The notes below the pieces were generated by a model. It searched no databases and was not told the origin of the DNA. It worked only from the letters and a program-made list of their open reading frames with translations. A stretch of 64,000 nt of DNA from Halobacteriovoraceae bacterium. Its GTDB lineage: Bacteria; Bdellovibrionota; Bacteriovoracia; Bacteriovoracales; Bacteriovoracaceae. Shown here in pieces: positions 2,280 through 7,885 of the stretch (positions are counted from its first letter, which is position 1; each line of letters begins with the position of its first letter). The translations under genes and the position numbers were made by a program. Location of the stretch: NCBI GenBank assembly GCA_002711995.1, contig PASN01000008.1, positions 186,001-250,000 on the forward strand, read 5' to 3'.

Positions 2280-2774
2280 ATGTCACTAGGCATCGTTAAA
2301 ATCATAAAATCCAGTCCACTCTTTCTTGAGCTATTAGACGAGGAAATTGATGATTTTATAAAAGGGTGTGAAGTTGAACGATTTGAGCCAAACGAGCATA
2401 TTATTAGAGAGGGAACCGACGGTGACGAAATTCACCTGATCCTCACTGGAAAGGCATGGGTTAGAAGAGGCGATCTATCTATAGCGGAATTAGGCAAGGG
2501 CGATATTCTAGGAGAACTCATTCTTCTCAACCAAACTTCCCGTACTGCTGATGTGATTGCTTCAACAGCCGTTGATGCGCTTGTTATCGAATACGATTAT
2601 ATATTTAGATATTTCAAGAAGAACCCTAAGCTCTTTGCTATTCTAATGTTGAATTTATCAAGGATGTTGGCCGGAAGACTAAAGAAGGCCGGATCAGACC
2701 TTCAGGCAATGGCATTTAAAAATAAAGAACTTAAAAATAAACTGAAAGAGGTCACTGAAAACCAAGACCTATGA
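2280..2774 (+). CDS. Cyclic-nucleotide-binding domain protein without DNA-binding domain
   Basis: The 164-residue protein is a single cNMP-binding beta-barrel (about residues 10-125), with the typical phosphate-binding-cassette-like stretch LGELILLNQTSRTADV and preceding I.EG..GDEI region. It is followed by a charged helix (about 128-160) that could form a coiled coil. There is no winged helix of the Crp/Fnr type, so it is unlikely to bind DNA itself and more likely senses a nucleotide or serves as a regulatory partner. It starts one base after the hslO stop. Its stop codon overlaps that of the convergent MotA-like gene. The ligand cannot be told from the sequence. Confidence 0.85.
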   Translation: MSLGIVKIIKSSPLFLELLDEEIDDFIKGCEVERFEPNEHIIREGTDGDEIHLILTGKAWVRRGDLSIAELGKGDILGELILLNQTSRTADVIASTAVDALVIEYDYIFRYFKKNPKLFAILMLNLSRMLAGRLKKAGSDLQAMAFKNKELKNKLKEVTENQDL

Positions 2775-2787
2775 GGCCTTGGTTTTT
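2758..2787. terminator. Bidirectional intrinsic terminator containing both convergent stop codons
   Basis: AAAACCAAG pairs with CTTGGTTTT, and an inner CCT/AGG pair closes a three-base ATG loop. The hairpin is followed by T5 on the plus strand, and on the minus strand the stem itself ends in T4. The TGA of the plus gene (2772-2774) and the TAG of the minus gene (2769-2771) lie in the loop and inner stem. One structure therefore can end both transcripts. Confidence 0.75.
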
Positions 2788-3689
2788 AACTCTTCCACAT
2801 TATCATCTAAATCATCAGATCCAAGTTTTTTGTCTATTCTTTCTAAGATATCAACCAATCTGTTAAGAACCTCTTTCTGACTGTGATCCTCGGACTGAAC
2901 AGTATGAATGTGATACCATAAGGTTTGTAGCGAAACCTCCACTTTCTTAAACACCCTGTACCTTGTCTGTTTTATTGGGAACAAAGTATTTAAAACGGTA
3001 AGCACCAATGAAAAGAAAATTCCCGCAATTGAAGTTTTCATCGCGTAAGTCACGTTAAGAACAAATGCCATCAATGTGTCTGCCGATGACTCAAGGTTAT
3101 TAAAGTCTATGTTGGCAATCTCTGGCAAGGCCATGCTGATTCCGATGAAAGTTCCAAAAACACCAAAAACAATGAATAGTCCTGGAAGAAGGTCAATGAT
3201 TCTAATGACGCCATCCACAGGAAAATACTTTAAAACTTTCATCCAATTTGGGTCTTGGCCCATAATTCTTGAAGTTAACTCATTAAAGTTTGGTGGAGTT
3301 TGATGATGAAAAACAGAGCTCTCTGCCTGTATGCTGGTCATAAGTCCATGTTTCCCGCTAACATAGTCTCTAAGTGAGATCTTTTGCTTCTCTTTTGGGG
3401 TTTCAAGCTCTTTTTTCTTTCCACCAAGCCTAACGCTTCTTTCAGGCAATTTTTCACCAACTCTGCTTAAGACATTGGAGAGGTACTTTTCAACCCCTTC
3501 GATCTCCTTGCCTTCCTCTTTATCTTTCTCAACGTTTAGTTCCAACTCGCGCGTAAAAGAAGAGTAATAGGTGTTGTCAGCGATACTCTGCCTGTAGGCC
3601 CCGAATCTAAGAATGAGCCCAATGCCTAGCATTGTTCCCATAAACTCAATTAGATACTCAGAAAAAAATGATAATACCAACTCAATCAT
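2769..3689 (-). CDS. MotA/TolQ/ExbB-family proton-channel protein
   Basis: This 306-residue protein has one hydrophobic segment near the N-terminus (about 5-28), a charged cytoplasmic stretch of about 130 residues, then two membrane segments (about 165-190 and 205-240). The segment LPGLFIVFGVFGTFIGI is the signature of the MotA_ExbB domain, and the three-segment topology is that of TolQ/ExbB rather than the four-segment MotA. A charged tail follows. It starts 11 bp after the stop of the MotB/OmpA-like gene with a GGAGA ribosome binding site, so the two almost certainly form a stator-like complex. Such complexes use the proton-motive force to move a partner in the envelope. It is not a flagellar MotA by length or topology. 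What it drives is unknown. Confidence 0.8.
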   Translation of the reverse strand: MIELVLSFFSEYLIEFMGTMLGIGLILRFGAYRQSIADNTYYSSFTRELELNVEKDKEEGKEIEGVEKYLSNVLSRVGEKLPERSVRLGGKKKELETPKEKQKISLRDYVSGKHGLMTSIQAESSVFHHQTPPNFNELTSRIMGQDPNWMKVLKYFPVDGVIRIIDLLPGLFIVFGVFGTFIGISMALPEIANIDFNNLESSADTLMAFVLNVTYAMKTSIAGIFFSLVLTVLNTLFPIKQTRYRVFKKVEVSLQTLWYHIHTVQSEDHSQKEVLNRLVDILERIDKKLGSDDLDDNVEELKTKAS

Positions 3690-3700
3690 ATATGTCTCCG

Positions 3701-6160
3701 TTAATTAATACCTTTTGCCATTTCTACAAGTTTGTTAATGGAGGCCACGTCGTCTTTTAGTGTGAAGCTAAGCTCAACTCTTTGAGAAGCATAGCAATCG
3801 TAAGGTCCACACTGCCCCTCTTTTACACTCGCCAATCCTCTCCCAATTTTAGGTTTGGTCATTACTGGCTTTATATATCCCTGTCCTATAGACTTTGCGA
3901 ATGCTTGAAGCTCTCCTTTAAAAGGGTAAGCTCCAATGCTTTTACTGAAAATATAATTAGCAATGCTAGACGCCCTTTGAGCGCTTAGACGCATATTGTA
4001 TGAATAGGCCTCGGAATTTTGCTTGTCAGGCTCCACGTATTTGCCTCTAAAAGAAGGAGACGCATGCCCAACAACATTAAAGCTTCCAATCTTGTCTTTA
4101 ACTTTCTCATTTCCAAATAAAGCTTTGGAATATATTGGGATAATTTTTTTCAGAGTTGCTCTTGCGGCCTTGTTCAGGTAGAAGCTATTTTTCTTAAACC
4201 TAAAGTTTTTGTCCATCAGCAACACCACGTTTCCGGTCTTCTTATCCACCTTTACGTTTAGATTCGCCTTTTCAAAAGCGTCAGCAAGCTCTTTGGCAAT
4301 TGTCGACCTTAATTTACCTTTTACACTGGCAACCTTGTCAGCGAAGTTATTTAAGGACTCCTTTAGGCTCTTATTTTTTGCCACAAGTTTAATTTTATTT
4401 TCAACACATGCATGGTGTCCTTTTTTCTCCTCTTCCATCTGATTAAGCTTTTCAAGAAACTTTGCTTCCACTTTCGCGAGCTTTTCTTTTTCATAGCCAA
4501 GGTCTTTTTTGACAACTTCAAGCTTTTTCAAAACTCTCTGCTTCTCTTTTTTTAACTTTGCAAGTTCTGCCTTGCTTATTGGAGCCTTTTTCTTTAGACC
4601 CTCTATCTGATCTTTTAATCCCAAATTTTCTCTAAGAACTTCAGCTCTACTTTCACCAATTGAGGCTATGTCTCTTCTCAGGCTTTCGTTGTCTTTTTCA
4701 AGCAGATTTTTTTCTTTGGAAAGTTTTCCGATTTTGGACTCTTGTGACCTTATCTTGGAGAGGTTCTTGGCCAACTCAAAGTTTAGCTGGTGATTCTGGG
4801 ACTGCAGACGGTCTTTGGCAGCTTCTGTATTTGATAAAGCCAAGCTTTTTGAGGCCAAGTCATTTTCAAGACTCTTTGATTTGCCTTTCAAAGCTTCATG
4901 CACCTTTTTTAAGGCTACATGATCGGCTTCTACCTTTTTCAAATGCACGTTTTGTTTCGCTAGTTCATCTCTCTCATTGATCATTTTATTTAATGTCGTT
5001 GTAGTGGATGCCAATTCAGCCTCTAGTTCTTTGCTTTTCATTTCGGCGGCATTGGCCCTGGTGCTTACGATTTTAAGCTCTTCTTCAAGCTCGGTTTTTT
5101 GTTTTGCGAGTTCATCTTTTTCCTGCAGCTTCTCTTTAAGTGTTTTATCGAGTTTTTTGTTTAGCGCCTGTACACCTGCAAGCTTTTTCTCCAACGCTTG
5201 TTTTTCACTGTATTGAGATTCAATTTTGTTTTTAGCATCAAGCAAGGCAAGCTTCTTTTTTTCAATCTCCATTCTAATATTTTTAATTCTTATTTTTTCC
5301 TCTTCTATTTTTACCTTTGCGGAAGCTACTTTATCTTTAAGTTTTGAGACTTCTGCCTTTTGCATAGAGATCTCTTTCAAATGATTTGAAACTTCCAGCG
5401 CTTTTTCTTTCTTAAATTGTTCAAAGCTTTTGTTTGTTGAGGTTAATTCATTTTGGATTTCTAGCTTTTGCTTATTTAGCTTTTTTATTTGGGATTTTCT
5501 TTCTAGTCCTTCTTTAAGACTTGCTTGAAGTTGTAGCTTCTTTTCTTTAAGTTCTTTTTCCAAAGACTTTCTTTGGTCGTCTTGTTTAAAGATCTTTTGC
5601 TTTTGTTTGTTATAAGCTTCTTTTAGCTCCCCCAAATTTGCTTGAAGTGTTTGTTTGGTTTTGGTTAAGCTCTCCAATTCTTTCTTTTTCTTCTCAAGGC
5701 CTTTTTCCAATTCAGTATTTTGAACAACCTGCTCTTTTAGCTCTTTTTCATATTTTTTAATGGAGGCCGATGCAGTTTGAAGAAGAGTGTCTTTCTTTTG
5801 GTGTTCTTGGATGAGGTCTTTCAGAACTTTTTTATTTTTCTTCAGATCCTTTACGAAGGCATTCATCTGAATCATTTTTTGATCTATGATTTCTTCGTAA
5901 TCAGCAATCTCTGAAATAGATGACTCTACCTTTTTAAGTTTTTGATTAGTCTCTGTTTTGGATTTTTGGCTTATTTGACCTTTTAATTCCTGCTCGTGAC
6001 GCTTTTTGGCAACCACAGTTTCCATTTTAGAAACCCCTGCCTTTATTAGCGCGAAAACAAACATCACTAAGAAAATTACGGCCACAGTGGTGAAAAGATC
6101 ACTGTAAGAGGTCCATACCCCTCCATCTTCCTTATTTCCCTCGTCGTCATGCCCATTCAT
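3701..6160 (-). CDS. MotB/OmpA-like protein with very long coiled coil between membrane anchor and peptidoglycan-binding domain
   Basis: The 819 residues fall into three parts. Residues 16-40 are a single membrane segment with a MotB-like start (WTSYSDLFTT), placing an aspartate at 21 where stators carry the proton-accepting Asp. Residues about 45-620 are almost uninterrupted K/E/L/Q-rich heptads, a predicted coiled coil. Residues about 625-819 form an OmpA-like domain: NVVGHASP, and then NMRLSAQRASSIANYIF fits the N..LS..RA..V peptidoglycan-binding signature. A strong SD (TAGGAGG) precedes the ATG. The MotA/TolQ-like gene follows after 11 bp. Known MotB proteins have only a short linker here, so the spacer is the oddity; it is longer than the helical region of TolA. 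Probably an envelope-spanning force transducer or tether (inference). Confidence 0.82.
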   Translation of the reverse strand: MNGHDDEGNKEDGGVWTSYSDLFTTVAVIFLVMFVFALIKAGVSKMETVVAKKRHEQELKGQISQKSKTETNQKLKKVESSISEIADYEEIIDQKMIQMNAFVKDLKKNKKVLKDLIQEHQKKDTLLQTASASIKKYEKELKEQVVQNTELEKGLEKKKKELESLTKTKQTLQANLGELKEAYNKQKQKIFKQDDQRKSLEKELKEKKLQLQASLKEGLERKSQIKKLNKQKLEIQNELTSTNKSFEQFKKEKALEVSNHLKEISMQKAEVSKLKDKVASAKVKIEEEKIRIKNIRMEIEKKKLALLDAKNKIESQYSEKQALEKKLAGVQALNKKLDKTLKEKLQEKDELAKQKTELEEELKIVSTRANAAEMKSKELEAELASTTTTLNKMINERDELAKQNVHLKKVEADHVALKKVHEALKGKSKSLENDLASKSLALSNTEAAKDRLQSQNHQLNFELAKNLSKIRSQESKIGKLSKEKNLLEKDNESLRRDIASIGESRAEVLRENLGLKDQIEGLKKKAPISKAELAKLKKEKQRVLKKLEVVKKDLGYEKEKLAKVEAKFLEKLNQMEEEKKGHHACVENKIKLVAKNKSLKESLNNFADKVASVKGKLRSTIAKELADAFEKANLNVKVDKKTGNVVLLMDKNFRFKKNSFYLNKAARATLKKIIPIYSKALFGNEKVKDKIGSFNVVGHASPSFRGKYVEPDKQNSEAYSYNMRLSAQRASSIANYIFSKSIGAYPFKGELQAFAKSIGQGYIKPVMTKPKIGRGLASVKEGQCGPYDCYASQRVELSFTLKDDVASINKLVEMAKGIN

Positions 6161-6237
6161 CAGAGTTCCTCCTAAAGATTTTAACTCGTAGAACTTCTCG
6201 GAGAATCTGAGGATTTTTTGAGTTTTTTAGACGACTT

Positions 6238-7272
6238 TCACTGCTGAAATGGGTTGATTATAGTTAATTCAAGGCCTTGCTGCTTAGCACCGCTAAATAT
6301 TCTTGGTAGAATGTCCGATTGATCATAGATTCCACAAAAGTTTTCGGCTCTGGCCCCACTAACCAAAACAGTGCCCATGAGATTGCTCTTTTTGGCGTTG
6401 AAGTACTTGCCTGACTTCTCATAAGCACCCCATTTTTTCCCCTCAGTTGGAAATTCGGCGTGAAAAGGCTGAGCTGAGGTAACTAAGAGTAGGAAATCAT
6501 TACGTTTATTGGCTATCCCTTGGAAATACCCGACAATTTTATTCAACTGCCCAAGTTCGTCTTTTGCCTCAGCAACTTTACCACTTCTCACTTTCTGAGC
6601 ATATTTGAAGTTTCTCACTATATATAAATAATTATTGGTGTTCCTTGAAAAGGACTCAAAAACCTTCGTCACATTATTTGCCAAGGTGGTAAAACACTCA
6701 CCACTCATACAAGATTTGTCATAATATACATCATTTGCGTAAAAATTGGGGACAGCTTCAACGTGGAAGACCTTGCTGTCCATAGGAGGCTTTTTATCCA
6801 TCTTCCAAAAATGCGTATCCTTTAGAAAATCGGAATTCTGACATGAAGCCCTGGATTCAAGCAAGGATTGCTTCTTAGTGCTCTCCCCTTCAAATATTCC
6901 CACCTTGTAGCCCTTTGGAAGCATATAGCTCCAAATAGGCCTAAGAGCATAGTCTTCGCAGCTATTTTTGATATTCTTTTTGCCAGTCATTTGGCTCATA
7001 AATCCCGAGCTCGCATCAGGCCTAATATTATATAGGTCATAGGCCCAGGTTTTTCCCACGCACAGAGAGTTTTCAAAAGAGGTCTTAACATCAACCGTCG
7101 GATAGGAGTATTTAAGCATTGCCAAATGCTCCTCAGTCAGACCTGCAAACTGGAGCCAAACAATTTTTACCGGTAATTTTCCAAATTGGTGCTTTTTAAG
7201 GTTTAGGCTTGTGACTTGAGCACATCCAATGAGGGATATAAAAAACAGTGTCTTAATAAGTTTATTCTTCAT
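6238..7272 (-). CDS. Lipoprotein resembling a degenerate alkaline-phosphatase-superfamily protein
   Basis: The start chosen is ATG at 7272 (MKNKLIKTLFFISLIGCAQ), which gives a clean lipoprotein signal peptide with lipobox LIGC; an upstream in-frame ATG at 7293 would spoil it. The start overlaps the end of the preceding gene by 11 nt. The fold hints are weak: KIVWLQFAGLTEEHLAML near the N-terminus and LLLVTSAQPFHAEFP followed by GTVLVSGARAENFCGIYDQSDILPRIF near the C-terminus resemble the strand/loop order of alkaline-phosphatase and sulfatase family proteins. The usual metal ligands (DxG start, SDHG loop) are not there, so an inactive relative is likely. It sits upstream of the MotB-like gene in the same direction, 77 bp away, and may be part of that envelope operon. 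Confidence 0.6.
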   Translation of the reverse strand: MKNKLIKTLFFISLIGCAQVTSLNLKKHQFGKLPVKIVWLQFAGLTEEHLAMLKYSYPTVDVKTSFENSLCVGKTWAYDLYNIRPDASSGFMSQMTGKKNIKNSCEDYALRPIWSYMLPKGYKVGIFEGESTKKQSLLESRASCQNSDFLKDTHFWKMDKKPPMDSKVFHVEAVPNFYANDVYYDKSCMSGECFTTLANNVTKVFESFSRNTNNYLYIVRNFKYAQKVRSGKVAEAKDELGQLNKIVGYFQGIANKRNDFLLLVTSAQPFHAEFPTEGKKWGAYEKSGKYFNAKKSNLMGTVLVSGARAENFCGIYDQSDILPRIFSGAKQQGLELTIINPFQQ

Positions 7273-7885
7273 GTAATGAATTATCATAATCAACCATTAA
7301 ATTTTTTACAATAGCGGCATTTGCAAGAGTGAACTTGAAGTGAAGCGACCAGGCCAAGTAAACTGCAAACCAAATGCTCATTGGAAAGGAGTACATTGCG
7401 ATTAGTGGCAGGGGAATAAGGGCCTTTAATTGTGCTCTATAAGCATAATTTCGAGTATGGGACTTTTTTGCGAGCATGAGAGTCACCAATATCTCAACAA
7501 TTGCAAATATGGCCATATTTTGAATGTCAGAGAGATAGTAACCCAAAAGAAAGCCTATCACAGGAAGCCTTAATAGTGTTTTTCCCTTTTTGGTCGTAGG
7601 CTCCTCCATATACACAAAACTCGCCAATGCGAGATATGCAAACTGGAAACACATAATCAGGCCTGCGCTTAATTGGAAAAATATGACTTTCCTTTGAATA
7701 TCCCAAATATACAGAAGGTTGCCTAAGAAATATGCAAATAAAGAAAGGATCATGAGCCATACAAAGGCAGTCAGATAGCTTAATTTTTGTTTTCTAAGAA
7801 TAATTCGAAAAGAGAAAACACTTAGGACTCCTATCAGTCCCAGACTAATTAGTTGCGGAATAATGTTGCTGATTGCGGATATCAT
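7262..7885 (-). CDS. Polytopic inner-membrane protein of unknown function
   Basis: A 207-residue protein with about six hydrophobic segments (roughly 8-28, 38-60, 70-92, 105-125, 127-140 and 155-180) and short charged loops. I recognise no family. It is the first gene of the minus-strand group that continues into the lipoprotein and the MotAB-like pair, overlapping the lipoprotein by 11 nt. No Shine-Dalgarno sequence precedes the ATG. Instead TATAGT lies 7 nt upstream of it, suggesting a leaderless transcript. Confidence 0.65.
   Translation of the reverse strand: MISAISNIIPQLISLGLIGVLSVFSFRIILRKQKLSYLTAFVWLMILSLFAYFLGNLLYIWDIQRKVIFFQLSAGLIMCFQFAYLALASFVYMEEPTTKKGKTLLRLPVIGFLLGYYLSDIQNMAIFAIVEILVTLMLAKKSHTRNYAYRAQLKALIPLPLIAMYSFPMSIWFAVYLAWSLHFKFTLANAAIVKNLMVDYDNSLHEE

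Follow-up and report, generated by a model that had tools for sequence, protein, structure and literature searches.

A putative ZorAB-related motor pair with a very long coiled-coil rod and a linked CNB- or FHA-domain gene in Bdellovibrionota

Background

The closest described systems to the gene pair reported here are the ZorA5B2 complexes of Zorya (types I and II; PDB 8qyd, 8vvn and 8vvi), which gave the best PDB matches, by sequence and fold for the A-subunit and by fold for the B-subunit. Zorya activity requires D24 of ZorB, the equivalent of the aspartate discussed below, and the wall-binding residues (PMC11890865). An aspartate in the transmembrane (TM) helix of B, a wall anchor and, as predicted, the logic of a stator driven by the proton motive force (PMF) are common to our pair and MotAB/PomAB, and the fold class of A is common to it and TolQR, ExbBD and AglRQS. 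To our knowledge, the known 5:2 motors have short periplasmic linkers; the periplasm is 20-30 nm wide. YcgR is a stand-alone nucleotide-reading protein that tunes the MotA stator.

Here, we describe a pair from a window (the whole stretch of DNA analysed, 64,000 nucleotides of contig PASN01000008.1 of a Halobacteriovoraceae bacterium) whose closest relatives, by sequence and predicted fold, belong to Zorya (ZorA and ZorB) rather than to the MotAB stators. The pair itself is not Zorya, because its genes stand in the opposite order, A lacks the cytoplasmic tail of ZorA, the rod belongs to B and no effector gene was recognised among the neighbours scanned. In the open literature, we found no papers describing the module, by which we mean the pair with its gene for a cyclic-nucleotide-binding (CNB) or FHA-domain protein.

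Results

The pair consists of the B-subunit gene (P0002; 3701..6160, minus strand; 819 aa) and, directly downstream with a gap of 11 bp, the A-subunit gene (P0001; 2769..3689, minus strand; 306 aa), at the coordinates where a preliminary description had placed a stator-type pair. The anatomy is that of the 5:2 superfamily: A has three TM helices, and B has one Asp-bearing TM helix. A is a ZorA/TolQ-like ring protein with a short C-terminal tail ending in K-A-S. It was matched by the PADLOC ZorA model (E = 8.5e-9) and the NCBIfam ZorA model, with scores far under the curated cut-offs (34.1 vs 100 bits), and by the Pfam model MotA_ExbB (PF01618) with 14.8 bits (cut-off, 22.9). When the A-family profile was compared with the PDB, the matches listed were ZorA chains only (8qyh, E = 2.2e-6). 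The AF2 model of A (pLDDT 81) had ZorA as its top Foldseek matches (8qyk, 8qyh and 8qyd; probability 1.0), followed by TolQ/ExbB; the fold match is modest (E about 1e-3, TM 0.46) and concerns single chains only, and the 5:2 complex is predicted by analogy. Identity with MotAB was rejected, since no family-level match was obtained and no MotA was among the PDB profile matches listed; of the MotA/TolQ and MotB/OmpA assignment made earlier, the stator type and the TolQ-like A stood, whereas ZorA/ZorB proved closer than MotA/MotB. Every intact member has an A-subunit of 281-436 aa, and the ZorA profile match spans nearly the whole C-terminus, which leaves no room for a long tail; the earlier statement that the long element lies on the B side, unlike in Zorya, agrees with this. 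At identities of 22-70%, the channel residues of A (T180, S220 and others) do not vary.

The Lys-Ala-Ser codons at the C-terminus of A (2772..2780, minus strand) give a small-small ending. Of 95 A-proteins, 90 end in this way, with a pair of small residues that mostly follows a Lys (KAS, KAA, KGA or RGA), compared with 29 of 595 other genes; the ending K-[AGV]-[AGS] was found in 26 of 39 CNB proteins and 0 of 67 B proteins. An artefact of a ribosome site was considered and rejected, as the codons vary and the ends are kept without a downstream gene. Because the codons vary, the ending is taken from these sequences to act at the protein level, where it could be a degron (of the ClpX type, which is only an idea) or a docking tail. 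A small-small ending, EAA, also occurs on MotA and on a TolQ-like paralogue of this genome.

The B-subunit has a short cytoplasmic N-terminus, one TM helix, a rod and a C-terminal OmpA/ZorB-type domain. The TM helix (residues 21-39; 6044..6100, minus strand) was assigned from hydropathy and 32 homologues, and contains D21, the stator Asp that had been reported as intact; in the alignment of the 32 homologues, Y19-S20-D21 and F23 are invariant. The wall-binding domain (residues 636-805; 3746..4255, minus strand), assigned from alignments, contains the motifs NxxLSxxR and SQRV and two conserved cysteines (784 and 789), and its signature is intact, as had also been reported: N722, L725, S726 and R729 are invariant and R774 and R794 nearly invariant in the same homologues. 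The score of Pfam OmpA was 20.1 bits, under the cut-off of 27.2, and that of the Pfam MotB_plug model was also under its cut-off; PADLOC ZorB1 matched residues 610-804 (E = 1.2e-26). The C-terminal domain was well folded in the AF2 model of B, of which the top Foldseek matches were ZorB (8qyd_F, E = 1.1e-7; 8vvn_B, E = 5.9e-7). A phmmer search of the PDB with the wall-binding domain alone gave no matches. The SMC/Rad50-like NCBIfam matches of B were set aside as coiled-coil similarity and nothing more.

The coiled-coil rod of B (residues 45-632; 4265..6028, minus strand) was assigned to one heptad register from its periodicity and the AF2 helices. Over residues 45-615, a charged stretch with a single proline, the hydrophobic period is exactly 3.50 (power, 5.65; maximum in 300 shuffles, 1.78), and the heptad phase does not shift over 12 successive 49-residue blocks (resultant 0.92; p = 5e-6 by simulation). 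The single-chain AF2 model has helices at residues 94-327, 337-523 and 531-631, with low-confidence breaks of 7-9 residues at 328-336 and 524-530; the pLDDT of the rod is about 70, and residues 60-93 are poorly predicted. In view of the two breaks and of residues 60-93, the rod length was taken as about 540-590 residues, that is, 80-88 nm if straight (0.1485 nm per residue), and the very long coiled coil of the preliminary description is thus confirmed within these limits. Hairpins or bundles would be permitted by the breaks, but the single register through both speaks against them, and one parallel rod with hinges is favoured over folded-back arms because the register crosses both breaks. Given the pLDDT and the two breaks, the rod may nevertheless be hinged or folded back. 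The continuous heptad register typical of long parallel coiled-coil proteins was found in the B rods except those of L055 and L078, in which the block phases were not coherent.

The rod varies widely in length among homologues. In all complete homologues measured, the coil has 279-1505 residues and is never a short MotB-type linker, with the exception of the divergent L106 (41 residues); the spacer of B has 333-1505 residues in the CNB clade of the window. The other clade of the order has spacers of 279-597 residues, and a sample from across the phylum has spacers of 285-483. The periodicity of the spacer is above that of shuffled sequences in most homologues and less clear in several Bdellovibrio-like ones. 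The longest B-subunit (L056:6748-12024, minus strand; 1758 aa) contains a coil of some 1505 residues, which would measure about 223 nm as a straight rod and in which a 63-bp unit (21 aa, three heptads) is repeated 19 times in tandem and tandem arrays of 186-189 bp also occur. Multiples of seven made up 70 of 212 and 368 of 831 coil indels among aligned pairs (1 in 7 expected); these pairs are non-independent, and heptad proteins are more readily aligned in steps of seven. Close rod pairs with few gaps differed mostly by 7, 4, 18, 22 or 44 residues, which are coil-compatible steps. From these comparisons, selection appears to preserve the coil rather than a given rod length.

As judged from the linkage described below, the true third gene is on the downstream side and was overlooked by the preliminary description, in which it was taken as unrelated because it is inverted in the window. 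It encodes a stand-alone CNB-domain protein of 164 aa (2280..2774, plus strand; Pfam cNMP_binding, 54.3 bits), inverted relative to the pair. In 39 of 40 CNB-type loci, the next gene downstream of A encodes such a stand-alone CNB protein, of 146-168 aa. In a CNB profile search of the order, 44 places scored at least 150 bits (next score, 108), of which 42 adjoin A; both of the remaining places have a stop codon in them. The phosphate-binding cassette has three invariant residues (G78, E79 and R88), and nucleotide binding is therefore likely. The CNB domain resembles those of Pycsar effectors (PycTIR, E = 1.5e-12). The gene of the window, inverted in comparison with its relatives (e.g., L044), now follows Hsp33 and overlaps the A stop codon by 6 bp, and the K-small-small C-terminus of its product is replaced by NQDL.

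In a sister clade, which is spread across Bdellovibrionota and takes in complete genomes of 3-4 Mb, an FHA-domain protein is found in the slot of the CNB gene, and a single split of the A tree separates the CNB from the FHA versions (100/83 support). In the FHA partners, the FHA domain is followed by a mostly helical rod of 160-1130 residues, a TM helix and about 150-195 further residues; in L141:5307-7691 (minus strand), L111:3247-6993 (plus strand) and L113:2272-5679 (minus strand), the cytoplasmic rod, often near a period of 3.66, is followed by the TM helix and a C-terminal domain of about 165 aa. Bd0474, a predation-related FHA protein (PMC6561027, PMC12034629), was considered as an FHA partner and rejected, as it is in a pilus operon.

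A search with A gave matches in 71 of 129 genomes of the order, and in 44 of its 73 good genomes; the family is thus absent from about 40% of the latter and is therefore not essential for this lifestyle. Across the phylum, the family profile matched 141 of 291 genomes, among them complete ones of about 3-4 Mb that belong to a single family. The pair is in single copy in most genomes that have it and is single across the complete genomes of that one family; a plasmid search for the pair gave no match. In about 70 loci inspected, B precedes A on the same strand, and the two genes are about -36 to +79 bp apart. The neighbours of the pair are CNB or FHA proteins and ordinary genes, and no PADLOC match to ZorC/D, ZorE or ZorF/G was obtained among the neighbours scanned. 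Of the Zorya features, a ZorA-type channel subunit and a ZorB-type subunit are present, and the long cytoplasmic ZorA tail is not. The same bacterial order also has an ordinary Zorya-type pair, in which ZorA (587 aa) is followed by ZorB (216 aa) (L107:8042-10456, plus strand); ZorC/D were not recognised by a scan of the two genes after it.

A lipoprotein-like gene and a multi-TM gene (P0003 and P0004; 6238-7272 and 7262-7885, both on the minus strand; no family match) lie upstream of the pair and had been proposed to belong to it. P0003 was found in 4 of 73 loci and P0004 in 2 of 73, and in L045 P0003 is several genes away from the pair, still beside a reductase gene. Homologues in which the two upstream genes are not kept next to the pair, which were to refute that proposal, were thus observed, and the four-gene unit at 2769-7885 was rejected, as the two genes are beside the pair in the nearest genomes only. 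There, they form a small syntenic block beside a heterodisulfide-reductase-like gene.

Discussion

From the pair with its D21 and wall-binding residues, the unbroken register, the coil-compatible length changes and the linked third gene, as read in the sequences and models, the balance of probability tips slightly toward a signal-gated, wall-anchored, PMF-driven 5:2 motor of the ZorAB branch with its rod along the wall. Against it count the modest fold match of A, the breaks in the modelled rod, the CNB gene of this genome, which has left the operon by inversion and lost its K-small-small end, and the absence of the family from about 40% of the good genomes of the order. As in the ZorAB/MotAB family, five A-subunits would surround a B dimer, and proton flow would be coupled to rotation. 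The two-stranded coiled-coil rod would anchor the motor to peptidoglycan and, because it is too long to stand across a periplasm of 20-30 nm, would by its geometry run roughly along the wall as a leash of 50-220 nm. A cytoplasmic reader (CNB here, FHA in the sister clade) may dock on the A ring and, once docked, engage or brake the motor, by analogy with YcgR on MotA; the CNB reader would presumably bind a cyclic nucleotide (cNMP). The output is the most speculative part: if the far end is fixed, rotation could twist the rod and store torsion or pull the inner membrane and the wall together, or the ring could rotate instead, with the output in the cytoplasm. When we assumed a torsional modulus of kT x 150 nm (our own number), one turn was computed to cost about 44 pN nm in a rod of 88 nm and 17 pN nm in a rod of 223 nm; the cost per turn falls with length, and longer rods would therefore be softer springs. 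The wider proposal of a phylum-wide signal-gated rotary motor, in which a shaft of 50-220 nm along the wall is a torsion spring or winch and the length, set in whole heptads by repeat expansion, determines the stiffness, has in our opinion a small chance of being correct.

The relationship to ZorA/ZorB in sequence and fold could also indicate a divergent Zorya-type anti-phage defence, with a PMF motor and sensor of which the rod senses wall damage at a distance and the CNB or FHA protein is an unrecognised effector or trigger. The likeness of the CNB domain to those of the Pycsar effectors and the patchy presence within the order point in the same direction. However, no ZorC/D/E or other defence gene was recognised beside the pair, the arrangement differs (B then A, a short A tail and the rod on B), and a real ZorA-ZorB pair coexists in the order (L107). 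Furthermore, one copy in most genomes with the pair and a single reader split on the tree look inherited rather than mobile, and no plasmid match was obtained; we thus regard defence as decidedly unlikely. The putative motor is related to the anti-phage motor but probably has another job.

For that job, a Tol- or Agl-like envelope or gliding motor may be proposed, the rod of which would pull or drag wall-bound elements and so help the cell to divide, enter prey or glide, while the reader would match this activity to the life cycle. It would suit a phylum of predators, the single copy across the complete genomes of one family and the signal-reader partner, and the small-small C-terminal ends could permit stage-specific turnover. 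Such a function is nevertheless unlikely, though to be taken seriously: separate TolQ/ExbB/MotA-type genes are present in the same genome, gliding or pilus genes were not recognised beside the pair, and a published phenotype was not found in the open literature. The extreme length of the rod and its variability would fit a passive wall tether, in which the channel is inactive or structural and the rod spaces or cross-links the inner membrane and the wall; the Y-S-D motif and the channel residues, invariant at 22-70% identity, would be needless for a tether, and we consider this very improbable.

A signal-gated, wall-anchored motor with a rod three or more times the width of the periplasm would break the usual stator geometry and must work laterally. 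It suggests that the ZorAB branch is not confined to phage defence and that predatory bacteria have it as a conserved machine, paired with second-messenger or phosphorylation readers. D21, the rod length and the reader gene are three handles on what a wall-anchored motor does besides spinning a flagellum.

Among the known systems, the YcgR:MotA brake is comparable by analogy only, in the tuning of a stator by a stand-alone nucleotide-reading protein; the reader here is a CNB protein (cAMP/cGMP-type), whereas YcgR is a PilZ protein, and the contact of the CNB protein with A is likewise proposed by analogy. TolR and ExbD have neither an OmpA-type domain nor a giant coil, whereas B has both. Compared with MotAB, A is under the MotA_ExbB cut-off with no MotA among the PDB matches listed, and the linker of B is about ten times longer than the plug and linker of MotB (PMC12505986). 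With Zorya ZorA5B2, the pair has in common the ion-path Asp, the OmpA-like wall-binding domain and the adjacent genes. It differs in that B precedes A, A is about 300 aa long without a cytoplasmic tail, and a coil of 279-1505 residues is on B, whereas the long tail of Zorya is that of ZorA; in place of ZorC/D/E, a CNB or FHA reader accompanies the pair, in one copy in most genomes that have it.
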